Part shown: positions 34,844-46,977 of the stretch, piece by piece
Layout of the letters: the number at the start of each line of letters is the position of its first letter
Position numbering within the stretch: position 1 is the first letter of the stretch
Assembly: GCA_903939515.1 (NCBI GenBank)
Contig: CAJAHH010000127.1
Coordinates: forward strand, 1-54,450
Length of the DNA: 54,450 bases
Direction of reading: 5' to 3'
Source of the DNA: an uncultured Verrucomicrobiota bacterium
GTDB taxonomy: Bacteria; Verrucomicrobiota; Verrucomicrobiia; Limisphaerales; UBA9464
Notes under the pieces: model-generated
What the model was told of the DNA's origin: nothing
Seen by the model: the letters and a program-made list of their open reading frames with translations, nothing else
Databases searched by the model: none
Made by a program: the position numbers and the translations under genes

Positions 34844-36352
34844 ATGTTGATTCGGCACCTGGCGCTCCTCGCCCTGACTGTGGCGTTGTCGGCGGACACT
34901 CTTCCGGCCATCCCACCTCGGCCGGAGGCCCTCAAGTTTCCGGCCCTGAACTACGAGCCTCCGGACCCCCGACAGTACCGGGTGGCCCTGAAGGCCGGAC
35001 CCGTGGCGTATGTGGTTCCGGATCGGGAACTGCCGCTAGTGACGGTTTCCATTTTGGTGCGCTCCGGCGCCTACCTCGACCCGGTAGGGCAAGAGGGCCT
35101 GGCCGCGTTCACCGGCGGATTGCTGGTTCGGGGCGGAACCGCCACCAAGACGGCGGAGGCCTTGGACGAACGCCTGGCTTTCCTGGCGGCGCAAATGGCT
35201 GCGTCCATCGGTGACGACCTCGGCATGGTCAGCCTGAATCTCCTCTCCAAGGATTTGCCGGAAGGCTTGTCACTCTTGCGCGAAGTGCTGACCCAACCCC
35301 GATTCCAGGCCGACAAGCTCGAACTCCAACGCCAGCAAACCCTCCAAGCTCTCCAGCAGCGCAACGACGATTCCTCCTCCATCGAGGCCCGCGAACTGGA
35401 ATCTCTCAGCTACGGGAGTCAATTTTGGGCCGCGCGCCAGCCCACCTCGGTCAGCGTCAACTCCCTGAAACGCGAAGACCTCCAAGCCTTCCATCGACGC
35501 TGGTTCCATCCGACCAATTTCGTCGTGGCCGTCAGCGGCGACTTCGATCGTGACTCAATGGTCCAAGCACTGGAAAAACTCTTCGCTGATTGGCCGTTCC
35601 CAGGAGAAGTTCCGCCACCGATCCCCACGAATCTCAAGCCGGCCGCCCCCGGGGTCTATGTGGTCAACAAGGATGTTCCCCAGGGCCGTGTGTCGATACT
35701 GCTGCCCGGTGTGCTGCGCGATGACCCCGATTATCCGGCAATCTTGCTGATGAACGACATCCTCGGCGGAGGCGGTTTTACCTCCCGGATCATGAACCGT
35801 GTGCGCAGCGATGAGGGTTTGGCCTATTCGGCCGGCAGTTCGTTTCCCGCGGGCGTCTGGTACCCCTCGACCTTCCGGGCGGGCTTCCAGAGCAAGAGTC
35901 GCACGGTCGCCTACGCAACGAGCATCGTGCTCGAGGAAATGAAGCGCATGGCCTCAAGTCCCGTGACCGAGGAAGAACTCCAGACGGCCAAGCGATCGTT
36001 CATCGAGAGCTTCCCGGAGAACTTCAACACCAAGTCCAAGGTGGCCGGGATCTTGGCACGTGAAGAATTCACCGGCCGCTTTGCCAAGGCCCCCGACTTT
36101 TGGAAGGGATTCCGAGCGCGCCTCGAGCGCGTCCAACGCGACGACATTCAGCGAGTTGCCAAACAACACCTGCATCCGGAACGAGTCTCGATCCTGGTGG
36201 TGGGCAACCAAGAGGAAATCCTCAAAGGCCACCCCGACCACCCTATCTCGCTGGACAAACTGGTCTCGGCCCCGTTGACCGAATTGCCTCTGCGCGATCC
36301 CTTGACATTGGAACCCATTAAGGCTGAACCGGAGGCCGGGACGGCGAAATAG
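34844..36352 (+). CDS. M16-fold peptidase-like protein lacking the zinc motif
   Basis: The protein has 502 residues from an ATG with a signal segment (HLALLALTVALSADTLPA). The two M16 halves are present: 'VTVSILVRSGAYLDPVGQEGLAAF' at the start and 'GGGGFTSRIMNRVRSDEGLAYS' in the second half. The place of the catalytic HxxEH motif reads 'GLAAFTGGLLVRGG', so the zinc ligands are missing. Inactive M16 subunits normally pair with an active partner, but none is next to it here. The 3' end overlaps the convergent HTTM gene by 35 bp. Confidence 0.87.
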   Translation: MLIRHLALLALTVALSADTLPAIPPRPEALKFPALNYEPPDPRQYRVALKAGPVAYVVPDRELPLVTVSILVRSGAYLDPVGQEGLAAFTGGLLVRGGTATKTAEALDERLAFLAAQMAASIGDDLGMVSLNLLSKDLPEGLSLLREVLTQPRFQADKLELQRQQTLQALQQRNDDSSSIEARELESLSYGSQFWAARQPTSVSVNSLKREDLQAFHRRWFHPTNFVVAVSGDFDRDSMVQALEKLFADWPFPGEVPPPIPTNLKPAAPGVYVVNKDVPQGRVSILLPGVLRDDPDYPAILLMNDILGGGGFTSRIMNRVRSDEGLAYSAGSSFPAGVWYPSTFRAGFQSKSRTVAYATSIVLEEMKRMASSPVTEEELQTAKRSFIESFPENFNTKSKVAGILAREEFTGRFAKAPDFWKGFRARLERVQRDDIQRVAKQHLHPERVSILVVGNQEEILKGHPDHPISLDKLVSAPLTELPLRDPLTLEPIKAEPEAGTAK

Positions 36353-38657
36353 GCGCTGAGACGCCGGGAGCCGGAATCCAGACCGTGCCGTCGGGCTGAA
36401 GGCTGCCTGGGCTGCCCCGTTGCAAGTCCAAGATCCACGGATTATGCCCAAACCAGCGGACCGACTCCGAAGCCAGGTCTGCCGTCGGATCAACCACTGG
36501 ATTGAAGGGCCGACGATTGAGCGACAACTGAGTACGGGCGCGAACCTCCGGGCGGCGTCCCTGATCCGAGGCCCATGCATCGGCCACACGCTGAGCATAG
36601 CGGCGCAGCAAGAATGGCTGAGTGCTAATGTGCATGCCTTTGGACGGGCCAACATCCCGGAAAAGATTCCAACGAAACTCAACCCTTGTTCCGTCGGCTT
36701 CCGTCGATTCGGTCACATACCAACGCGGTAGCAAATCCCCCTCTCCCATTCCCAAGGGTTCGTGGAATACCCGCATGAGCCCCGCGGTCGCGGAAGCGCT
36801 TTCTTCGCGCCAGACAACCGGGTCAATTCTTGGCGGGAGAGAGGATCCTGGCCTCATGAGTTGGCGGTCTTCGATCACCAGGAAAACCCCAGAAGACGGG
36901 CGCGTGGCCGTCATAGCAAATGGATCCATGCGGCGCAGCACCGGCATGAGTTTGCCGTCACCGAAGCGCCCATTGAGGGTATTGAGTGCGTCCAAGGTTT
37001 CTTGAGGATTGCGGAAGGTATACCCCCGAGCTCGCATGGAGCGCTCGTAGCCTTCGAGGATGCGAGCCAGTGGGACGCTGCGGTTGACCGAATCCGGGAG
37101 GCGTCCGTACCGCTGTTTCCAGAGTTGCGAGATGCGAACCTTGGCGGCGGATTCAGACCGATCGGTGACGGAGGCTGAAAGAGTGTTGTAGAGAATTCGG
37201 TCCCCGGTCCAAGGGTCCAACACCACGACCACTTCCGGCAGCATCGCCCAATCACACTTTCCTGATTCCAACGGATGGTAGATCACCGGATCTCCACCCC
37301 AGGCTTTCCAGTCGATGCTTCCGGCTCCGGTGCCCGACGTGGAGGGCTGGATCACCGGATCGCGCAATGAAATCTCCACCGGAGTGCTCTGATACACCTC
37401 GGCCTTCAGGCGCCAACTCCATTCCAGACCTTCGAAGGTAACGCGGACATCCCCCGGGATCAGGACGTGCCGGATCGGGAATAGCCCCTGAAAGACAGTC
37501 CAGACCACCATTCCACTCACCGTCCACGCGTTCAGGGTGAAGGGCTTGGCCCACTTCCCTACCGGGACCGAAGACTGGCCCTTCCAACCCAAGGCGGCCC
37601 CAACTCCGGGCACCGCCACTAGGCCGCCCCAAAGCCAAGGCCAGTCGGGTGTCGGAATGCGCGGATTGCACAGCCAGCGAAACACTCGGGAAGGCCAATC
37701 CGGCTCGAGGAAGATCAGGGCCGTGGTGACCCCGAGCAGCGGAAACCAGACGATGTCATTGAAGAGGATAAAGTGATTAATCCCATGAAAGATCCCCATC
37801 AGGACGATTCCCAAAAAGCGGGTCCGACGGACCAGCAGCAACAGGCCAATAGACAAATCAAAGACGGCTCCAATCCAACTGAGACCCAGCGCCAGCGCCG
37901 AGGAATGAACCCACCGCTCGATCATTCCCGCCCAATCATAGGGCAAGAGAAACTTCAAACGCGCCGTGACCCACGGTTTTTCCAGGAAGATTCGAATCGG
38001 ATAGGCATCGACCATCCAATCGGTATTCAGCTTGGCCACTCCGGCATAGAAATAGGTGATCACCAATTGCGCCCGGAGAAGCCAAATAGGCCAAAATGGG
38101 ATGAGCACCGTGCCGGTACGCACCGTCTTCGAGGCATCCAAACTAAACCGGGCTGCAGCCGGCAGAAACGGCATCAGGAAGAGCACCAACAGCTCGAGGT
38201 AGTAGTAGCTCATCCAGTAAGTCCGCGTGGACTCCACCGCGTACAAGTAGCCCCAGGCCAAAAAGGTCAGCACGGTCGAGGCCCGGTACCGGAAACCCAA
38301 TCCCATGCCAATCGCGCCGAGGCCCAGCAACACTCCGACCCCCTGAATCCAGGGCGTCGGGAGGAGCGGCAACCATCCGAACCCGGCATAAGGAAGATGG
38401 AAGGTCACCTCGCGACCGGCGTAATAAACCTCGAGATGAGACCGCCCGCCGGAAGACTCGGAAGGCAGGAAGAGCGAAATGGCCTCCAACAGCATCACCA
38501 AGCCGACGGCGATGCGGAAGACTGCCAGGGACTCCGCGCTCACCGCGCGATCCCACCCGAGGGCACGAGCCCACGACTCCCACCGGGCCCGCCAACCGGT
38601 ACTGGCATCCAAAGGCAATGAGGGACCCACGCCTGATCCTGAAGCAGGCAGACTCAT
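36318..38657 (-). CDS. HTTM (vitamin K-dependent gamma-carboxylase-like) membrane protein
   Basis: The 779-residue protein begins with multiple membrane helices (about residues 45-370) carrying the HTTM pattern 'VFRIAVGLVMLLEAISLF', 'YYAGREVTFHLPY' and 'LRAQLVITYFYAGVAKLNTDW'. This pattern is shared with the catalytic part of gamma-glutamyl carboxylase. The C-terminal half (about 380-779) is soluble and beta-rich with no recognised domain. Bacterial HTTM proteins have unknown reactions; a carboxylase or quinone-linked role is only a family guess. It overlaps the M16 gene convergently. Confidence 0.78.
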   Translation of the reverse strand: MSLPASGSGVGPSLPLDASTGWRARWESWARALGWDRAVSAESLAVFRIAVGLVMLLEAISLFLPSESSGGRSHLEVYYAGREVTFHLPYAGFGWLPLLPTPWIQGVGVLLGLGAIGMGLGFRYRASTVLTFLAWGYLYAVESTRTYWMSYYYLELLVLFLMPFLPAAARFSLDASKTVRTGTVLIPFWPIWLLRAQLVITYFYAGVAKLNTDWMVDAYPIRIFLEKPWVTARLKFLLPYDWAGMIERWVHSSALALGLSWIGAVFDLSIGLLLLVRRTRFLGIVLMGIFHGINHFILFNDIVWFPLLGVTTALIFLEPDWPSRVFRWLCNPRIPTPDWPWLWGGLVAVPGVGAALGWKGQSSVPVGKWAKPFTLNAWTVSGMVVWTVFQGLFPIRHVLIPGDVRVTFEGLEWSWRLKAEVYQSTPVEISLRDPVIQPSTSGTGAGSIDWKAWGGDPVIYHPLESGKCDWAMLPEVVVVLDPWTGDRILYNTLSASVTDRSESAAKVRISQLWKQRYGRLPDSVNRSVPLARILEGYERSMRARGYTFRNPQETLDALNTLNGRFGDGKLMPVLRRMDPFAMTATRPSSGVFLVIEDRQLMRPGSSLPPRIDPVVWREESASATAGLMRVFHEPLGMGEGDLLPRWYVTESTEADGTRVEFRWNLFRDVGPSKGMHISTQPFLLRRYAQRVADAWASDQGRRPEVRARTQLSLNRRPFNPVVDPTADLASESVRWFGHNPWILDLQRGSPGSLQPDGTVWIPAPGVSAPISPSRPPVQP

Positions 38658-38818: not shown

Positions 38819-40771
38819 ATGTACACCCGAGCCTACGACTGCCCCAACTGCGGTGCCGCCGTGCCCTTTCCCTCGGCCATCGTGGTGTTCGCGGTCTGCG
38901 GATTCTGTCGCTCGAATGTGATCCGCAGGGATGCGGATGCAGTGCTCGAGCACTTGGGCCGACAAGCCCAACTTCCGCCGGACTTGAGTCCGATACGGAT
39001 TGGTACCTGCGGCGTTTACACATGTCATCGCTTCACAGTGACCGGTCGTATCCGAGTCGGTTACGAACAAGGTTCTTGGAATGAGTGGCTCATCGATTTT
39101 GGGGAGAATCGATGGGGTTGGATCGCCGAAGCGCAGGGGTTCTATGCGGCCAGCTTCGAAATCGCAGCGCCACCGGACCTCCCCGAAGCCAGCGCACTGA
39201 CCTTGGGAGCAATCCTTCGAATCGGGGAGGTGGACTACAGCGTCCGGGATATTAAATCGACCCAGATACTGGGCAGCGAGGGGGCCCTCCCCATGGTCGC
39301 GGTACCGGGCCGCACCGCAGTGAGCATTGATCTCGGTGCACCCAACCGGCAATTCGCCAACGTGGAGTTCTCCGCGGACGGGGTTCGAGTCTTCATCGGA
39401 CACAGCCTGACCTTCGCGGAACTCGAGTTCACCGACCTGCGCCCACTGCCGGGTTGGACGACCGACCGGTTGGAAAAAGAAGCGGCCGGCAGCGACGCTC
39501 TCAACTGTCCCACCTGCGGTGCAGCACTAGAATTGCAGGCGGCCGGCCAAACCATGCGAGCCTTGTGCGGTCATTGCGGATCGCTGTTGGACACCTCCCA
39601 CCCCCAACTCCAGTGCATTGAACAGACCATTGCGGCCCAACCGACCCTCATTATCCCCATCGGCCAACGCGGGCGTTTCGATGGCGTGGACTACGCCTGT
39701 ATCGGTTTCGTCCGCCGAAAGGATACCGAAGGCTATTCGTGGCAGGAATACCTGCTGTTCAACCCCTTCGCGGGATTTCGGTGGCTAGTCGCCTACGACG
39801 GGCACTGGAGCTGGATCACCCTGCTTCAGGAGGAACCACGCATTGTCGACTCAATACCCGTGCACGATGGCCAAGGATACCGCCTTTTCACATCCGGTTC
39901 AGCAACAGTGACCGAGGTCTGGGGAGAGTTCTACTGGGCGGTGCGTCTGGGCGAACGCACCCTTCTTTCCGACTACATTGCTCCGCCGAACATACTTTCC
40001 TCGGAGCAGTATCCAGAACTAACTGAGGAGACTTGGTCACAGGGCCACTATCTGGAACCAGAGGTGGTCTTCAGCGCCTTCGGCCTGACCGGACCTCCGC
40101 GAGAACGCTCAGGAACCTACCTCAACCAACCCAACCCGCATGCCGAAAAGGGCCGCACCCTGCGCTGGCTGCTGCCGGTGTTCGGGATCCTCTGGCTGCT
40201 CATTTCGCTCATCAGTGCGGGCACCAAGGCCAATGAGTCGGCCTTCCGGGAGGAGTTTACCTTCGATTTGTCCGGCACCAATAAGACGCGGGTCTCGGCC
40301 CCGTTCCGTATCGCTGGCAGCCACCCTCAGTCGCTGCAATTTGATTTCATTACTCCAGTGAACCAATCCTGGGTCGAACTGGACGTGGATCTGGTGAATA
40401 CCCAGACCAAGGCCGTCCGCGAGCTGAGCCTCGGGGCAGAGTACTGGAGCGGCGTCGACGAAGGCGAATCCTGGTCGGAAGGCAATCAGCAGGCCACCGA
40501 ACTCATCCCGGCCGTCGAACCGGGCGAGTACCAACTAGTCATGGACATCGACGGTTCCCCCGAACTGGGCCAAGCCGAATTCCGCCTCGAGATCACCCGC
40601 GATGTAATGGTTTGGAGCAATGTCCTCCTCGGTCTGATTCTGCTGTTTGCCTACCCGCTCTTCCGCTGGATCCGCGAACATGCCTTCGAGCGGGAGCGCT
40701 GGTCCCTCAGCGACCTCTCACCTTACACCCCCATCACGACGAGTTGGGACAGCGATTCGGACGACGACTAA
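38819..40771 (+). CDS. Double zinc-ribbon DUF4178 membrane protein
   Basis: The 650-residue protein contains two copies of a zinc-ribbon plus DUF4178 unit. The first is CPNCG...CGFC (about residues 8-32), then 'GYEQGSWNEWLIDFGENRWGWI'. The second is CPTCG...CGHC (about 222-250), then 'GYSWQEYLLFNPFAGFRWLV'. A membrane helix (LLPVFGILWLLISLISAG, near 450), a beta-sandwich-like region and a second helix (VMVWSNVLLGLILLFAYPLF, near 605) follow, then an acidic C-terminus ending DSDSDDD. DUF4178 genes occur next to polyamine genes and DUF350 in many bacteria, and this copy heads such an operon. The biochemical role is unknown. GAAGG precedes the ATG. Confidence 0.85.
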   Translation: MYTRAYDCPNCGAAVPFPSAIVVFAVCGFCRSNVIRRDADAVLEHLGRQAQLPPDLSPIRIGTCGVYTCHRFTVTGRIRVGYEQGSWNEWLIDFGENRWGWIAEAQGFYAASFEIAAPPDLPEASALTLGAILRIGEVDYSVRDIKSTQILGSEGALPMVAVPGRTAVSIDLGAPNRQFANVEFSADGVRVFIGHSLTFAELEFTDLRPLPGWTTDRLEKEAAGSDALNCPTCGAALELQAAGQTMRALCGHCGSLLDTSHPQLQCIEQTIAAQPTLIIPIGQRGRFDGVDYACIGFVRRKDTEGYSWQEYLLFNPFAGFRWLVAYDGHWSWITLLQEEPRIVDSIPVHDGQGYRLFTSGSATVTEVWGEFYWAVRLGERTLLSDYIAPPNILSSEQYPELTEETWSQGHYLEPEVVFSAFGLTGPPRERSGTYLNQPNPHAEKGRTLRWLLPVFGILWLLISLISAGTKANESAFREEFTFDLSGTNKTRVSAPFRIAGSHPQSLQFDFITPVNQSWVELDVDLVNTQTKAVRELSLGAEYWSGVDEGESWSEGNQQATELIPAVEPGEYQLVMDIDGSPELGQAEFRLEITRDVMVWSNVLLGLILLFAYPLFRWIREHAFERERWSLSDLSPYTPITTSWDSDSDDD

Positions 40772-40792
40772 CCGGCCCCCAACCTTCCCACC

Positions 40793-40939
40793 ATGCGCAT
40801 CAAAACCCCCGTTTACCTGGCCTTTGGAACGGCCCTTTGCCTTTATCTGGCGGCTGCCGGACGCAATGGCTACAGCCTCATGAAGACCTTTTCCCCCTCA
40901 CGCCTCCTGCCTCACTCTCCTGCCACCCAACACAAATAA
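40793..40939 (+). CDS. 48-residue membrane microprotein
   Basis: The ATG at 40793 opens a 48-codon frame starting MRIKTPVYLAFGTALCLYLA, with one short hydrophobic helix (about residues 7-23) and a basic, Pro/His-rich tail ending PATQHK. It fills most of the gap between DUF4178 and DUF350: 21 bp after the former and 3 bp before the latter. The tight fit suggests a real gene. No homology is recognised. It may be a small accessory subunit of the membrane system. Confidence 0.6.
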   Translation: MRIKTPVYLAFGTALCLYLAAAGRNGYSLMKTFSPSRLLPHSPATQHK

Positions 40940-40942
40940 CCC

Positions 40943-41182
40943 ATGAGTCTCTTCGACTTCGTCCCCCCCTTCGCCACATTCGTACCCGCCCTGGTCAACA
41001 GCGTCGTGTTCTCGGTCATCGGCCTGGTGACCTTCTTGGTATGTTTTTTCATCGTCGACAAGCTGACTCCCGGAGAACTCTGGAAGGAATTGGTGGAACG
41101 GAAAAACACGGCCGTGGCCATCTTCTTTGGGTGTCTGGCCCTCGGGATGAGCCTTATCATCGCTGCCTGCCTCCACGGATAG
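40943..41182 (+). CDS. DUF350 membrane protein
   Basis: The 79-residue protein has two membrane helices: 'ALVNSVVFSVIGLVTFLVCFFIVDKLTPG' and 'NTAVAIFFGCLALGMSLIIAACLHG'. The 'FxxxDKLTPG' and 'KNTAVAI' blocks are DUF350 (YjfL) hallmarks. This is the short one-unit form; longer relatives carry two copies. DUF350 proteins are found beside polyamine or glutathionylspermidine genes and are thought to form a channel or scaffold. It lies 3 bp after the microprotein and 22 bp before the SpeE-like gene. Confidence 0.88.
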   Translation: MSLFDFVPPFATFVPALVNSVVFSVIGLVTFLVCFFIVDKLTPGELWKELVERKNTAVAIFFGCLALGMSLIIAACLHG

Positions 41183-41204
41183 TCGGTCCGCCTTTTGGCA
41201 CCGC

Positions 41205-42719
41205 ATGAACGATCGCGCCTCTCGCCTCCTGCTCCTGGGGAGCGTGTTTGTCATCGCCACCTGCGGGTTGGTCTATGAGTTAATTGCCGGCACCATCGCC
41301 AGCTACCTCCTCGGCGATTCCATCACGCAGTTCTCCACGGTGATCGGCGTCTACCTGTCCGCCATGGGAGCGGGCTCATGGCTCTCCAAATTCATCGACC
41401 GGCACGAAGGGTGGATCTTTGTCCAAGTCCAACTGCTCATTGGACTCATCGGGGGCTGCTCGGCGGCCCTGCTGTTTCTTCTATTCCCGATCGTCACGTC
41501 CTTTCGGGTGCCGCTGTACGGGCTCATCTTTCTGGTGGGCATGCTCGTCGGACTGGAGATCCCCCTGCTCTTGCGCCTGCTCAAAGACCGCATCGAATTC
41601 AAGGACCTCGTCGCCCGGGTTTTCACCTTCGACTACATCGGAGCGCTGCTGGCATCATTGCTCTTCCCGTTGGTTCTGGTGCCGCATCTGGGACTAGTCC
41701 GCTCCAGCTTCCTCTTCGGTATGCTCAATGTGGTCGTGGGGCTCATGAGCGCCTGGCTGCTCATACCGCGCGGACCAAAACGCCGCCTCCTTTCAGTGAG
41801 CGGATTCCTGCTGCTGGGGGGCCTGTTGGTGGGATTCATCGCCTCCGAACGCCTCATGGCGTGGTCCGAACGCTCGGCCTACACCGATACGGTCATTTAC
41901 GCCAAGTCGTCCCCCTACCAGCGCATCGTGCTCACCCGCAACGGGGCGGACCTTCGACTGCACCTCAACGGCAACTTGCAATTCAGCTCGCGCGACGAAT
42001 ACCGGTATCATGAAGCATTGGTGCACCCGGGATTGGCCCGACTGCACACGGCCCGTTCAGTGCTCGTGCTCGGGGGCGGTGATGGATTGGCAGTCCGTGA
42101 AATCCTCCGGTATTCCAACGTGCAAAAAATCACATTGGTAGACCTCGACGGGGACATGACCCGCCTCTTCCAGACACAACCCCTGCTGACACGACTTAAT
42201 GGGAATGCGCTGAACGCGCCGACGGTTTCCGTGGTCAACGCCGATGCCTTCACCTGGTTCGCCACCAACCGTCAGCGCTTCGATTTCGTGGTCGCTGATT
42301 TCCCAGACCCCTCGAATTTCAGTCTCGGAAAACTGTACACCACCACCTTTTTCCAACGCGTCCGTTCCACGTTGGAACCCGGCGGAGCCTTGGTTGTGCA
42401 ATGCACCTCACCCTATGTCGCCCGAAAGACCTTCTGGTGCGTGAACGAAACCCTGCGAGCCTCCGGTTTTTCGCACACGGCCCCGTATCACCTCTACGTG
42501 CCCAGCTTCGGCGAATGGGGCTTTATCCTCGCTTCTGATCAACCCCTAGTCGCCCCGCTGCAACTGCCGACCGGACTGCGCTACCTGACCGAGAACTCCG
42601 CTCGGAACTTGTTTGATTTTCCGCCCGACATGACGGCGGTCCCCGTCGAGGTGCATCGCCTGAACAACCAAATGCTGGTGCGCTACTTCGAGGAGGAGTG
42701 GGCCCACTATGTCCACTGA
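41205..42719 (+). CDS. Membrane-embedded spermidine-synthase-like aminopropyltransferase
   Basis: The 504-residue protein has an N-terminal block of about seven membrane helices (residues 5-215) fused to a SpeE-like domain. That domain has the SAM/dcSAM site 'VLVLGGGDGLAVREIL' near residue 286 and the catalytic-type 'VVADFPDPSNFSLGKLYTTTFF' block. It would transfer an aminopropyl group from decarboxylated SAM, made by SpeD in the same operon, to an amine acceptor. The membrane half sets it apart from cytosolic SpeE, so the acceptor may be membrane-bound or exported. It overlaps the FAD gene by 11 bp. Confidence 0.88.
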   Translation: MNDRASRLLLLGSVFVIATCGLVYELIAGTIASYLLGDSITQFSTVIGVYLSAMGAGSWLSKFIDRHEGWIFVQVQLLIGLIGGCSAALLFLLFPIVTSFRVPLYGLIFLVGMLVGLEIPLLLRLLKDRIEFKDLVARVFTFDYIGALLASLLFPLVLVPHLGLVRSSFLFGMLNVVVGLMSAWLLIPRGPKRRLLSVSGFLLLGGLLVGFIASERLMAWSERSAYTDTVIYAKSSPYQRIVLTRNGADLRLHLNGNLQFSSRDEYRYHEALVHPGLARLHTARSVLVLGGGDGLAVREILRYSNVQKITLVDLDGDMTRLFQTQPLLTRLNGNALNAPTVSVVNADAFTWFATNRQRFDFVVADFPDPSNFSLGKLYTTTFFQRVRSTLEPGGALVVQCTSPYVARKTFWCVNETLRASGFSHTAPYHLYVPSFGEWGFILASDQPLVAPLQLPTGLRYLTENSARNLFDFPPDMTAVPVEVHRLNNQMLVRYFEEEWAHYVH

Positions 42720-44406
42720 CTGGAGCATGATCCCGGCATCGCCCAACAACGACCGCCCCTCCGCACACTCCCATCGCTCGACACGACGGCAATTCCTCGC
42801 CACAGCGGCGGTGGGTGCGAAAGTGGCCGCAACAATTGCTGCAACGGCCACGGGGTCAGCCTTTACTTGGGCCGGATGCACCGGAGCTCCGTCGTTTGGG
42901 GGCGAAATTGTGGGTCCGGATCGAGTGTTGGGGCACCGATTGCGCGATCGAGACCTGCCGGCGCCCGATACTTCCGAACGGCACAACGTAGTCATTCTGG
43001 GTGGCGGAATCGCCGGATTGTCCGCCGCACGGTCGTTGGCTCAACGCTCCATCCGCGACGTGGTGGTGTTGGAACTTGAAAGCGAAACCGGTGGCAATTC
43101 TCGCAGCGGCATTACTGCCGTTTCAGCTCATCCGTGGGGAGCCCACTACCTGCCCTTGCCCGGTCCGCAGGCGCCGGAAGTCCTGCAACTCTTGCAGGAA
43201 CTGGGGGTAATCACCGGTCACGATGCTCTCGGACGCCCGATCTACCGTGAGGAATTTCTCTGCCACGATCCGGCCGAACGACTGTTCGTTCACGGACGCT
43301 GGCAAGAGGGTCTCATCCCCCAACTGGGTCTCGACGCCGGCGAGCGAGATCAAGTGAGTGCTTTTCTGGCCCGCATGGAGAGCTTGAGGCGAAGCCTCGG
43401 TTCAGACGGCCTTCCGGCCTTTGCCATTCCGGTCGACCGAAGTTCTCAGGATCCCAGCCTGCTGGCGTTGGACCGCATCACCATGGCCCAGTGGATGGAC
43501 CGCGAAGGATTTCGCGCCGCGCCCCTCCGCCGTTATGTGAACTATTGCTGCCGCGACGATTTCGGAACCGGCCTCACCCAAGTCAGCGCCTGGGCCGGAA
43601 TTCATTACTTTGCCGCGCGATCCGGGGTCGCGGCCAACGCACCTGCTCACTCGGTGCTCACCTGGCCTGAAGGCAACGGGTGGCTGGCGGCGCGCCTGCG
43701 GGAACAGGTGACACCCGCCCAGATTCGCACCAGGCACGCCGTCTTCGGCATTCGGCCCCATGATCACGGAGCCGAAATCGACGTCTTCGATGCGACCCTC
43801 GGACGCTCCCTGCGCATCGAATGCCGGGCGCTCATCGTGGCCACACCGCGGTTCGTGTACCGCAGGCTCCGCGGCCTTCCGCCGGATTCCGTGGCTCAGT
43901 ACCCACCGTGGATGGTGGCCAATCTGACCCTGCATTCCCGGCCCGAGTCACACGGCATGCCCCTGTGCTGGGACAACGTGATCGATGGATCGCCCGGACT
44001 GGGCTACGTGCATGCCGGCCACCAAAGCTTGAGCTCTCATTCGAAAGGAACGGTCCTGACGTATTATCGACCACTGGACCATGCGGAGCCCTCGATGGCC
44101 CGAGGTGAGGCCCTCAAGGCCGACTGGTCGCACTGGAGTGATCTCACGCTCGCCGACCTTTCGGTGGCCCATCCAGATCTCCGTGGCCGACTCGAACGCC
44201 TGGATGTCCACGTCTGGGGACACGGCATGATCGCACCATCACCGGGTTTTCTGTGGGGACACCGCCTCACCGCCATGACCCATCGCGACGGAGTGGTGCA
44301 CTTTGCCCACTCGGACATGTCCGGTATCTCCCTTTTCGAGGAGGCCTATATTCGGGGCCTCCGCGCCGCCGATGCGGTCTTCCAACAGCTTCAGACCACG
44401 GCCTGA
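42709..44406 (+). CDS. Twin-arginine FAD-dependent amine-oxidase-like protein
   Basis: The 565-residue protein has a Tat signal with STRRQFLATAAVG (Arg26-Arg27) and a following Cys57 that could mark a lipoprotein. The Rossmann FAD motif is 'VVILGGGIAGLSAARSLAQRS' (about 95-115), then 'ETGGNSRSG'. The amine-oxidase-like C-terminus has 'AHSDMSGISLFEEAYIRGLRAA'. It is therefore an exported flavoprotein, best guessed to oxidise a polyamine or its conjugate. It is fully embedded in the polyamine operon, overlapping the SpeE-like gene by 11 bp and one base before speD. Confidence 0.82.
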   Translation: MSTDWSMIPASPNNDRPSAHSHRSTRRQFLATAAVGAKVAATIAATATGSAFTWAGCTGAPSFGGEIVGPDRVLGHRLRDRDLPAPDTSERHNVVILGGGIAGLSAARSLAQRSIRDVVVLELESETGGNSRSGITAVSAHPWGAHYLPLPGPQAPEVLQLLQELGVITGHDALGRPIYREEFLCHDPAERLFVHGRWQEGLIPQLGLDAGERDQVSAFLARMESLRRSLGSDGLPAFAIPVDRSSQDPSLLALDRITMAQWMDREGFRAAPLRRYVNYCCRDDFGTGLTQVSAWAGIHYFAARSGVAANAPAHSVLTWPEGNGWLAARLREQVTPAQIRTRHAVFGIRPHDHGAEIDVFDATLGRSLRIECRALIVATPRFVYRRLRGLPPDSVAQYPPWMVANLTLHSRPESHGMPLCWDNVIDGSPGLGYVHAGHQSLSSHSKGTVLTYYRPLDHAEPSMARGEALKADWSHWSDLTLADLSVAHPDLRGRLERLDVHVWGHGMIAPSPGFLWGHRLTAMTHRDGVVHFAHSDMSGISLFEEAYIRGLRAADAVFQQLQTTA

Positions 44407-44407
44407 A

Positions 44408-44845
44408 ATGAACCCCATCGCCCCGATCTCCCCGAAACGCCGTTCCTCCCCGAAGGCCCTGTGCCAGCACACCTTGCTCGAATTCCACGGTTGCGATGCC
44501 GAGGTCTTGAGCCGGGTGCGGACCATCCGTGAGCGAATGCTGGCCGCCGTCACCGCCGCCAATGGAACCATCGTGAAACCCGTCTTCCACGAGTTCAGCC
44601 CCTGGGGGGTGAGCGGCGTGGTGGTCATCGCCGAAAGTCATGTGACCATCCACACGTGGCCAGAACACGGCTATGCGGCCGTGGACATTTTCTCGTGCAG
44701 CCGAAAGCTGCGCCACGCCATGGTGCGCGAGACCTTGCGCCGATCATTGAAGGCGCAGTCGGTCACCGCCCAGCGATTGAGTCGCGGTCTCGTTCCACCG
44801 GGATCGATTGCTCAACGACTCACAGGCAAGGCGAAGGCCACATAG
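44408..44845 (+). CDS. speD: S-adenosylmethionine decarboxylase proenzyme
   Basis: The 145-residue protein starts one base after the FAD gene. The self-cleavage and pyruvoyl site is plain in 'VIAESHVTIHTWPEHGYAAV'; the chain is cut before the Ser to create the pyruvoyl cofactor. It makes decarboxylated SAM, the aminopropyl donor for the SpeE-like enzyme of this operon. No arginine or ornithine decarboxylase lies nearby. The 3' end overlaps the convergent PQQ dehydrogenase by 34 bp, and the short tail after 'RLSRGL' is longer than usual. Confidence 0.93.
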   Translation: MNPIAPISPKRRSSPKALCQHTLLEFHGCDAEVLSRVRTIRERMLAAVTAANGTIVKPVFHEFSPWGVSGVVVIAESHVTIHTWPEHGYAAVDIFSCSRKLRHAMVRETLRRSLKAQSVTAQRLSRGLVPPGSIAQRLTGKAKAT

Positions 44846-46977
44846 GCATCGCCGCTGGGCGTGCCCATCTTGCCACCGCCACAGGCGATCACCACGTACT
44901 GACGTCCGCCCACCGAGTACGTCGCCGGGGTGGCATAGCCCCCGGCGGGCAGAGGTGCTTTCCAGAGTTCTTGCCCTGTCTTGCGGTCGAAGGCCCGCAA
45001 GTGCGCATCTCGACTGGCCGCGATGAAGACCAATCCTCCGGCCGTCACCAACGGACCGCCGTAGTTTTCGGTGCCAGTGGGCGGCACTCCTTGCGCAGTC
45101 AATTCCTTGAACTCCCCCAGCGGCACCTTCCACCGAATAGAACCCGTGTTGAGATCGATGGCATTGAGGGTTCCCCACGGCGGCTTGACCGCAGGATAGC
45201 CATTGGTGTCGAGCCAGCGGTTGTAGCCGGTCATAGAATACGGGATGAGCCCCAAGGCATCGGCCCCGCCGGCCCCGGACCGCCCGCCACCCGCCGAAGC
45301 CCCCTCGGCCCCAGCCGGCTCCGCTTCGCCCCGCACGAAGGCCACTAGACGCGCACGCTGCCCTTCGGTCAGAAAATCAAAGGCCGGCATCACTCCCTTG
45401 CCCGTCTGAAGCAACTTCAGCAGGTCAGCGGTTTGGAGACGTTTCTCGACCCCGACCAATGACGGGACGTTCTGGCCTGGATTGCCCTGCCGTTCCGAAC
45501 CGTGACACACCGCACAAATCTGCTGGAACAACGCCGCGCCGGAGGCCGCCGATTCCCCGTCCTTCCGGCGAGTTTCCACCATGGTCAGGATCCACGGCAT
45601 CTCGTTGCCGTTGACGTAGAGAACCCCGTCCGGATCGGTCGCCGCACCGCCCCATTCCGCACCCCCATCGAAGCCAGGGAATACAATGGACCCCTCACGG
45701 CTGGGCGGTTGGAAGGGCGCATGCGGCCGGATCCGCGAAAACCGTTCTAAGACTTGCCGGTGAGAACTCGGCGAAATATCGGTGATTTCGTTGTGGGTAA
45801 ACAACTGCCGCGAGAACGGCGGCGGACGCAACGGCACCGGCTGCGTGGGCCACGCCGATTCGCCGGAAAGGTCGGAGCTAGGCACCGGGATTTCCTGAAT
45901 CGGGAACAACGGTTGGCCCGTCTGGCGATCGAAAACAAACACATGGCCTGATTTGGTCACCTGCGCGACGGCATCGATGCGTTTCCCCTGATGGGTCACC
46001 GTCACCAAATTGGGAGGCGCGGGCAGATCTCGGTCCCAGAGGTCGTGGTGAACGAACTGAAAATGCCAAAGCCGCTGGCCCGTCTGAGCATTGAGGGCAA
46101 TGAGGCAATTGGCGTAGAGGTTCTGTCCCATCCGGTTGCCTCCCCAGAAATCGAACGCTGCCGAACCCGTCGGGCAGAACACGATCCCCCGAGCCTCATC
46201 GAGGGCGAAGCCCGTCCACACATTGGCGCCGCCGACGGAGCGGTAGGCCTCGGACGGCCAAGTCTCATGGCCCGCCTCGCCGGGCTGGGGGATGGTGTTG
46301 AAGCGCCACGCCAGTTTTCCGGTGCGGATGTTGAAGGCTCGTACCGGACCCGGAGCCGCGGGAGCGGGACCTTCGCCCAGACGCATGCCCATGATGAGGA
46401 GGTCTTTGAAGACCACCCCGGGAGTCGTCGCCTGAAGGGACAGCCCCGAAGCATCGCGTCCGAGTTCCTGCTTCAAGTCGATAGAACCCTCCTGACCAAA
46501 ACTGGGAATGCGCTGTCCGGTCACCGCATCAATGGCATGAAGAAAGTGATCATTGGCGTAAAGGATGCGTCGGTCGGAGCCCTCGGCCCAATAGACCAGC
46601 CCCCGATTGACCCCGCTCTTGGTGATGCCCTTGCACGCAGCCGGATCAAACCGCCATTTCTGAACACCGGTGGTGGCATCGAGCGCGAAGAGTTTGAGGT
46701 CGGGCGTCGTGCCATAAACCACCCCATCAATCACCAACGGATTGCATTGGATTTGCGAACGGTTCTGCGCGTCTGAACCACCGCTACGGTAGGTCCAGGC
46801 TACTTGCAACCGCGCGACATTCTTGGCTTGGATTTGCTCGCTCCGCGAATAATGGCTGCTGGCCGCATCCCCCAAATACACGGGCCAATCCACGGTGCCC
46901 GGCGAGGCGCCCGCCACGCGGAAGGCCATCACCATCGCACACATCCCGGTCATCCATCCTCGTCGTTGTTGCTTCAT
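44812..46977 (-). CDS. PQQ-dependent dehydrogenase with internal cytochrome c domain
   Basis: The 721-residue exported protein has a signal at the N-terminus and an eight-bladed quinoprotein propeller ('VDWPVYLGDAASSHYSRSEQI', 'RLQVAWTYRSGG', 'GPLVTAGGLVFIAASRDAHL'). A heme c motif CAVCH sits in an insert (about residues 485-560) before the last blades, with Met in 'GVMPAFDFL' as a likely axial ligand. It resembles membrane or periplasmic glucose/alcohol dehydrogenases and would pass electrons from PQQ to its own heme. Substrate unknown. No PQQ synthesis genes are in the window. Confidence 0.9.
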   Translation of the reverse strand: MKQQRRGWMTGMCAMVMAFRVAGASPGTVDWPVYLGDAASSHYSRSEQIQAKNVARLQVAWTYRSGGSDAQNRSQIQCNPLVIDGVVYGTTPDLKLFALDATTGVQKWRFDPAACKGITKSGVNRGLVYWAEGSDRRILYANDHFLHAIDAVTGQRIPSFGQEGSIDLKQELGRDASGLSLQATTPGVVFKDLLIMGMRLGEGPAPAAPGPVRAFNIRTGKLAWRFNTIPQPGEAGHETWPSEAYRSVGGANVWTGFALDEARGIVFCPTGSAAFDFWGGNRMGQNLYANCLIALNAQTGQRLWHFQFVHHDLWDRDLPAPPNLVTVTHQGKRIDAVAQVTKSGHVFVFDRQTGQPLFPIQEIPVPSSDLSGESAWPTQPVPLRPPPFSRQLFTHNEITDISPSSHRQVLERFSRIRPHAPFQPPSREGSIVFPGFDGGAEWGGAATDPDGVLYVNGNEMPWILTMVETRRKDGESAASGAALFQQICAVCHGSERQGNPGQNVPSLVGVEKRLQTADLLKLLQTGKGVMPAFDFLTEGQRARLVAFVRGEAEPAGAEGASAGGGRSGAGGADALGLIPYSMTGYNRWLDTNGYPAVKPPWGTLNAIDLNTGSIRWKVPLGEFKELTAQGVPPTGTENYGGPLVTAGGLVFIAASRDAHLRAFDRKTGQELWKAPLPAGGYATPATYSVGGRQYVVIACGGGKMGTPSGDAYVAFALPVSR

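Follow-up and report, generated by a model that had tools for sequence, protein, structure and literature searches.

Relation to described systems

Operons that combine a spermidine synthase with seven transmembrane segments (7TM), DUF350 and DUF4178 are described by Ravi et al. 2024 (PMC11237479), who include a variant with an AdoMet decarboxylase, a polyamine oxidase and band-7/SHOCT, mention actinobacterial DUF4247 variants, and put forward as a general idea the "aminopropylation of other substrates". Here we examine an operon of this kind in a window (the whole stretch of DNA that was analysed, 54,450 nucleotides) whose coordinates are those of contig CAJAHH010000127.1 of GCA_903939515.1, an uncultured Verrucomicrobiota bacterium. 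The operon lies at 38819-44845 on the + strand, and all six of its open reading frames (ORFs) are present: DUF4178, a microprotein, DUF350, a membrane-anchored SpeE (TM-SpeE), a flavin adenine dinucleotide (FAD) oxidase and SpeD. From sequence comparison we propose that a membrane-anchored protein receives an aminopropyl group from TM-SpeE on its C-terminal lysine and that the flavoenzyme acts on the product, a reading to which we give even chances.

Like the published type, the window operon has a 7TM region followed by a SpeE domain, DUF350 and DUF4178 as adjacent genes, and an AdoMet decarboxylase and an oxidase by family; it differs in that no PspA-CesT/Tir dyad or band-7/SHOCT gene adjoins it. 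The published variant with AdoMet decarboxylase, oxidase and band-7/SHOCT resembles many of the loci that we compared, for example a Novosphingobium plasmid with the order SPFH-DUF4178-DUF4178-hypothetical (48 amino acids)-DUF350-SpeE-FAD-SpeD. The original prediction had taken the pathway to be undescribed. This does not hold for the set of genes, for the variant with an oxidase or for the aminopropylation of other substrates, since all are in Ravi et al. 2024, but the lysine tail of the microprotein is not to be found there: neither "lysine" nor "small protein" appears even once in the main text, figures, tables and supplements aside. A literature search, with supplements and subscription papers outside its scope, did not find the lysine tail, its parallel with Gly-Gly (GG) tails or the microprotein family in print. 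The operon type is already in print, uncharacterised; the other three elements are new as far as the search reached.

The other close comparison is with Escherichia coli, where YgiC and YjfC, reportedly peptide-spermidine ligases (Pederick et al. 2023), go with the DUF1190 lipoproteins YgiB and YjfM. In both systems a polyamine enzyme has as its neighbour a protein that looks exported, whose tail is of low complexity and whose C-terminus is fixed, and the E. coli yjf operon shares DUF350 and PspA with operons of the TM-SpeE type. They differ in that the E. coli system pairs an ATP-grasp ligase with a GG end, whereas the window operon pairs SpeE with a His-Lys (HK) end. The absence of an ATP-grasp gene from the operon, pointed out in the original prediction, was borne out by profile searches, in which no operon protein scanned matched PF03738; the remainder of the genome was not searched.

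A microprotein family with a terminal lysine

The microprotein gene (40793..40939, +) encodes 48 amino acids with one hydrophobic segment and the C-terminus ...TQHK. Although the original prediction listed it, its informative role was overlooked. In the loci compared, the gap between DUF4178 and DUF350 is mostly about 150-240 nt, and up to 380 nt, and the protein encoded there, mostly 45-65 amino acids long, combines a single hydrophobic segment with a flexible tail. For a test by position only, we picked, from the small ORFs that lie between DUF4178 and DUF350, whichever was most hydrophobic, blind to its C-terminus, in 81 loci with DUF4178, DUF350, TM-SpeE and FAD oxidase, 79 of them distinct (L048/L179 and L056/L160 are duplicates). 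Lysine was the terminal residue in 78 of the 81 ORFs, in 76 of the 79 distinct loci, and in 65 of 68 groups after the SpeE genes had been clustered at 85% DNA identity. The tails were HK in 60 of the 81 loci and Gly-Lys (GK) in 18, and the idea of a universal HK ending was rejected on these counts. Loci L145 and L165 have no separate microprotein ORF; there the DUF4178 protein itself ends in ...GGSHK and ...SGSHK, respectively (oriented ORF ends, 6593 and 6807). In L164 the scan was misled by a competing ORF; the tail of the true microprotein is ...FYHK.

Fifty-four FAD-anchored loci, counting that of the window, have SpeE and DUF4178; a script located an HK-ending ORF in 48 of them, and direct reading of the other six gave HK in L033, L044, L058 and L064 and GK in L069 and L078. 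The background rate of HK ends was 56 in 8622 short ORFs overall, operon ones included. Elsewhere in the FAD-anchored loci a terminal lysine was seen in 2/81 DUF4178, 0/54 DUF350, 0/69 SpeE, 1/82 FAD and 0/52 SpeD ORFs.

Mean column identity was 22% in 39 aligned microproteins, which were selected for HK ends, the invariant His and Lys of this alignment being there by construction. When 66 representatives are selected by position instead, three further columns stand out as well conserved, with Gly in 94%, Tyr in 70% and Ala in 65%. No Pfam or NCBIfam family was found for the microprotein, the best stray E-value being 0.0022 for one of the 39 members. Distinct 15-residue tails number 81 in the oxidase class, with a further 23. 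The terminal codon of 113 K-tailed genes is AAA in 83 and AAG in 30, and this use of both lysine codons speaks for selection on the residue. We had also considered that the terminal codons might derive from a ribosome-binding site, which is unlikely because both codons occur and the next gene starts at varying distances.

Tail type and modifying enzyme

We examined how the tails are distributed over loci of different enzyme content. In a set of 42 loci anchored on TM-SpeE, an oxidase is present in 16. Of these, 13 encode the HK microprotein on its own, 2 have the HK tail in fused form and 1 has neither (Formivibrio, L146). The 26 loci lacking an oxidase have no such HK protein, and 18 of them have another protein that ends in GK; the HK ORFs listed for two oxidase-less loci (L159, L175) are unrelated by eye. 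A further group of 20 loci has the oxidase in 18, and 17 of these have a K-tailed microprotein; in the two that lack it, lipoprotein-like proteins end in GK. A K-tail is also encoded on five of the six plasmid records retrieved for TM-SpeE. Taking the oxidase-less TM-SpeE loci together, the last two residues of a protein of exported type (by eye, mostly with the look of a lipoprotein or TM protein) are GK in 22/31 and VK in 1/31; when lipoprotein-like proteins were grouped solely by BLAST, GK was the ending of 11 out of 11. HK was seen only in oxidase loci and GK in both classes.

For comparison we assembled 16 ATP-grasp loci, in which the enzyme was recognized as PF03738 by search, as YjfC-like by tblastn, or by clustering with a PF03738 protein. 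The neighbour of the ATP-grasp gene ends in GG in 11/16, including E. coli YgiB and YjfM; GG-tailed proteins lie beside PF03738 or YjfC-like genes at L197:245-916 and L198:4888-5526 and in L257-L259, L267-L270 and L172/L173, export being not obvious for that of Paraburkholderia (L270). The RefSeq product name of both YgiC and YjfC is "peptide--spermidine ligase". The GG ends suggest that the C-terminus of these proteins is the spermidine acceptor beside ATP-grasp enzymes, and we infer that YgiB and YjfM are substrates of the YgiC and YjfC ligases. PspA and DUF350 can be common to ATP-grasp loci and TM-SpeE loci.

Tail type tends to track the modifying enzyme: lysine with TM-SpeE, GG with ATP-grasp. 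The argument for the tail as acceptor rests above all on this tendency of two unrelated enzyme families to come with the C-terminus that suits each.

The enzymes of the operon

Operon proteins were assigned to families by Pfam and NCBIfam profile scans. TM-SpeE (41205..42719, +; 504 amino acids) consists of seven helices and an aminopropyltransferase domain and scores 653 bits against NF002956, the polyamine aminopropyltransferase family, with a cut-off of 472. An AlphaFold2 model built with 48 sequences (mean predicted local distance difference test score, pLDDT, 89.7) places seven long helices ahead of the SpeE domain, in agreement with the figure of about seven originally predicted. The best Protein Data Bank matches of the model by Foldseek are the T. 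thermophilus aminopropyltransferase and thermospermine synthase. GGGDG and D-x-x-D-P are the decarboxylated S-adenosylmethionine (SAM)-binding and catalytic motifs of SpeE; GGGDG and D365-x-x-D368-P are invariant in the 48 aligned TM-SpeE rows and align with the solved enzymes. Catalytic fold and key motifs are those of the soluble SpeE of E. coli and T. thermophilus, from which TM-SpeE differs by the seven extra helices, with many invariant residues in the 48-row alignment, and by an operon devoid of a putrescine gene. The original statement that no putrescine-producing enzyme is present holds for the operon but not for the genome, which encodes the biosynthetic arginine decarboxylase SpeA, as well as LysA. 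The genome further has one SpeD, this TM-SpeE, and two other large Spermine_synth matches of fused type.

SpeD, of the S-adenosylmethionine decarboxylase family, is encoded at 44408..44845 (+; 145 amino acids from the ATG at 44408). In family scans that used the longer ORF, with its start at 44303, it scored 121.4 bits against TIGR03330 (cut-off 75.65) and was also above the cut-off for AdoMet_dc. According to one report, SpeD homologues may act on SAM or on arginine/ornithine (PMC10407285); a single SpeD in a genome with TM-SpeE favours SAM as the substrate. The carboxyspermidine route was rejected as the usual source of spermidine: NspC is above its cut-off in 2/50 operon-related genomes and not in the source genome, although any match at E <= 0.001, mostly weak, counts 31/50. 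Because NspC is rare, redundancy of the spermidine supply cannot be argued by way of this route.

The FAD amine oxidoreductase (42709..44406, +; 565 amino acids) matches PF01593 and PF13450 and has an N-terminus of the twin-arginine translocation (Tat) type. A structure model (pLDDT 87.4) has the amine-oxidase fold, and top Foldseek matches include monoamine oxidase (MAO), putrescine oxidase, spermidine dehydrogenase and protoporphyrinogen oxidase. Members of the classical MAO/polyamine oxidase family have a conserved active-site lysine. A conserved lysine of this type was not found in 47 aligned FAD homologues, where only one column is more than half Lys (25/47 rows). A loose Tat pattern (RR-x-hydrophobic within the first 60 residues) is present in 47/47, which fits the originally proposed oxidation, of a putative substrate, outside the cytoplasm.

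The DUF4178 protein (38819..40771, +; 650 amino acids; Pfam DUF4178, 109 bits) comprises two DUF4178 stretches followed by two hydrophobic segments around another region and an acidic tail, the segments being judged by eye; many homologous loci encode DUF4178 as two separate ORFs. The DUF350 protein (40943..41182, +; Pfam 52.6 bits) has 79 amino acids, versus 132 for E. coli YjfL.

A proposed mechanism and its alternatives

We suggest that the operon makes, and then modifies, a small membrane-anchored protein. SpeD, judged by family, would make decarboxylated SAM, and TM-SpeE, anchored by its seven helices, would move a 3-aminopropyl group onto the side-chain amine of the microprotein's C-terminal lysine. 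The lysine side chain is a four-carbon primary amine (butylamine), like putrescine, the usual acceptor of SpeE; because of this resemblance an aminopropylated C-terminal lysine, Ne-(3-aminopropyl)lysine, would make the end of a flexible tail resemble spermidine. In the class with HK/GK microproteins, the Tat-type flavoenzyme might then act on this amine outside the cytoplasm, perhaps finishing it (as an aldehyde or cross-link) or perhaps removing it, with DUF350 and DUF4178 as presumed membrane accessory parts. Where the oxidase is lacking, the C-terminal lysine of the equivalent lipoprotein is the candidate acceptor. The ATP-grasp operons may follow the same logic with another writer, a spermidine-ligase family enzyme beside a GG-ending lipoprotein, since ligation of spermidine to a C-terminal Gly would leave an end similar to that of aminopropylated lysine. 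Lysine as acceptor, the identity of the product, the side of the membrane and the action of the oxidase are all putative. The originally proposed aminopropylation of a membrane or envelope target fits these observations and can be narrowed to a candidate residue, the C-terminal lysine of the microprotein or equivalent lipoprotein, with the chemistry inferred. On the whole, the original interpretation was partly supported.

More broadly, TM-SpeE enzymes could be protein aminopropyltransferases with exported proteins as dedicated targets, whose C-terminal lysine they would convert into Ne-(3-aminopropyl)lysine or extend by a longer chain. They would then form one half of an envelope "polyamine end-capping" system, of which the other half, ATP-grasp with GG, joins whole spermidine, and in which the Tat flavoenzyme serves one class as editor; we offer this generalization tentatively, at somewhat less than even confidence. 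Aminopropyl units on protein lysines have a precedent in diatom silaffins, whose lysines carry methylated aminopropyl units (PMC4557024); silaffins differ in being eukaryotic and in having many such lysines per protein, and the likeness drawn here is one of chemistry. If the proposal is true, it describes a new protein modification, supplies a candidate bacterial enzyme for lysine aminopropylation, a modification familiar from silaffins, and ties polyamine chemistry to the envelope-stress genes PspA and band-7. That some AdoMet decarboxylase and SpeE homologues possibly do not serve polyamine pools is a standing puzzle, for which the lysine tail names one residue.

Several observations weigh against this proposal. 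Many of the loci are relatives, and their counts are not independent. K-tails in oxidase-less loci were mostly found by looking for K, which biases that count upward, the BLAST-defined groups excepted; no K-tail was found in 8/31 (3 truncated by the contig, 3 in which DUF350/DUF4178 were not found, and 2 with a GG-tail and an adjacent ATP-grasp gene). On the ATP-grasp side, 5/16 loci lack a GG neighbour (in L255 the tail is VSS, and for the remaining four no protein of this kind could be identified). SpeE and FAD genes occur with no nearby microprotein in Formivibrio (L080 = L146), L237 and Burkholderia stagnalis (L266), and TM-SpeE occurs alone in Competibacter-type genomes and one Verrucomicrobia bin (L249-L254). 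The source genome has SpeA, and an ordinary acceptor may therefore be available. Finally, Lys plus Arg counts in even versus odd loops of TM-SpeE (6.1 vs 2.1, n=48; 7.1 vs 2.5, n=38; 9.0 vs 2.7, n=3) hint, by the positive-inside rule, at an N-terminus inside and a SpeE domain outside the cytoplasm, in which case the donor must be exported. No decarboxylated SAM is known outside the cytoplasm; either the positive-inside rule misleads for TM-SpeE or the donor crosses the membrane.

The operon might instead be an ordinary polyamine synthase that happens to be tied to the membrane, SpeD and TM-SpeE making spermidine or aminopropylagmatine from SpeA products while the exported oxidase degrades periplasmic polyamines. 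TM-SpeE does exceed the cut-off of a family named for polyamine aminopropyltransferases, SpeA is at hand, the operon's SpeD is the sole one found in the genome, and the other two Spermine_synth matches there are large proteins of fused type. Such a synthase would leave unexplained the lysine tail, the strong conservation of the membrane part and the change of tail with enzyme; moreover, some TM-SpeE genomes (G247, G267, G758) have a second, shorter SpeE-like gene, and NspC exceeds its cut-off in few of the operon-related genomes, as noted above. We regard this explanation as unlikely, though a serious one. It is also conceivable that the lysine tail is a recognition or anchoring signal, docking to TM-SpeE, DUF4178 or the flavoenzyme or protecting against C-terminal proteolysis, and that the true amine substrate is a lipid, a wall component or free polyamine. 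Fixed short C-terminal motifs often serve in docking, and the restriction of HK to oxidase loci, with GK in both classes, would suit such a role. The one feature common to otherwise unrelated proteins is, however, a terminal side-chain amine, and beside an enzyme family with peptide-spermidine ligase activity lysine is usually replaced by GG; a recognition or anchoring signal seems to us rather improbable. Least expected is a flavoenzyme that is itself the writer, turning the terminal lysine into an aldehyde in the manner of lysyl oxidase and cross-linking the envelope, with SpeE and SpeD engaged in something separate. The amine-oxidase-like fold and the presence of HK microproteins only where the flavoenzyme is found (42 TM-SpeE-anchored loci) agree with it, but it does not account for GK-tailed proteins in 22/31 TM-SpeE loci in which no flavoenzyme was found, and we consider it highly improbable.

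Distribution of the operon

A scan of genome contigs for the FAD protein gave 482 relatives, from which the 80 best loci were retained. Many loci from several phyla (by record title) preserve the order DUF4178 - gap - DUF350 - SpeE - FAD, which is also maintained beyond the source genus, so that the neighbours, whose lack of conservation had been named at the outset as grounds for abandoning the idea, are conserved in many loci. SpeD, where found in FAD-anchored loci, sits at either end of the operon. With NF002956 at E <= 1e-60 as the survey criterion, TM-SpeE is present in 9/194, 16/230, 18/247 and 39/198 genomes of the four groups surveyed; the FAD gene is present in 9/39 related genomes (source genome counted), all of one genus. 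Loci with DUF350/DUF4178 and TM-SpeE, and with no ATP-grasp gene noted nearby, are widespread. The FAD gene occurs with no SpeE nearby in 12 genomes. In 9 of these a TM-SpeE that passes the family cut-off lies elsewhere; an HK microprotein adjoins it in four, and for the others none was found in the stretch examined.

Among 115 compared loci, 40 encode a membrane-like protein of about 365 amino acids, all 40 with the FAD gene; it lies mostly directly 3' of that gene, often with a 4-nt overlap (e.g. L026:10532-11629), is not in the window operon, and had no Pfam match in the two members scanned. A PspA cluster is present in 12 loci, all oxidase-less (3/12 members scanned, 3/3 confirmed by Pfam), and a band-7/SHOCT cluster in 14/115 loci, 12 of the 14 with the oxidase (1 member scanned, confirmed). 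Two individual loci deserve mention. Contig 53 of G831 (L237) carries two TM-SpeE genes about 6 kb apart, the first with FAD and with no DUF4178 or microprotein found. In Chthoniobacter flavus, a reverse-transcriptase-like ORF (L034:1-870; by eye, group II intron type) lies just upstream of TM-SpeE and occupies the contig end where DUF350 and the microprotein would be expected.

Operon layout and flanking genes

The original description of six closely packed genes on one strand was right in substance but, with spacings of 1-47 bp, looser than the actual arrangement, in which the intergenic distances along the operon are 21, 3, 22, -11 (overlap) and 1 nt. Both flanking genes are on the - strand, and Pfam searches placed no PspA, CesT/Tir or band-7/SHOCT gene as a direct neighbour of the operon. 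Upstream and divergent from it, a gene at 36318-38657 (-) encodes a 779-amino-acid protein with HTTM and VKGC lumenal domains, like vitamin K-dependent gamma-carboxylase. Downstream, a pyrroloquinoline quinone (PQQ) dehydrogenase with a cytochrome c domain (44812-46977, -) is convergent with the SpeD gene and overlaps its 3' end by 34 nt. The two fused-type Spermine_synth proteins of the source genome (L003, L004), 988 and 856 amino acids as read, have spermidine-synthase-like domains of the fused major facilitator superfamily (MFS)/SpdSyn type. Repeats around the operon are not notable, and a promoter scan found 0 against 1.1 expected. Terminator-like elements number 10, versus 5.4 (sd 2.5) in shuffles, and lie mostly within genes.

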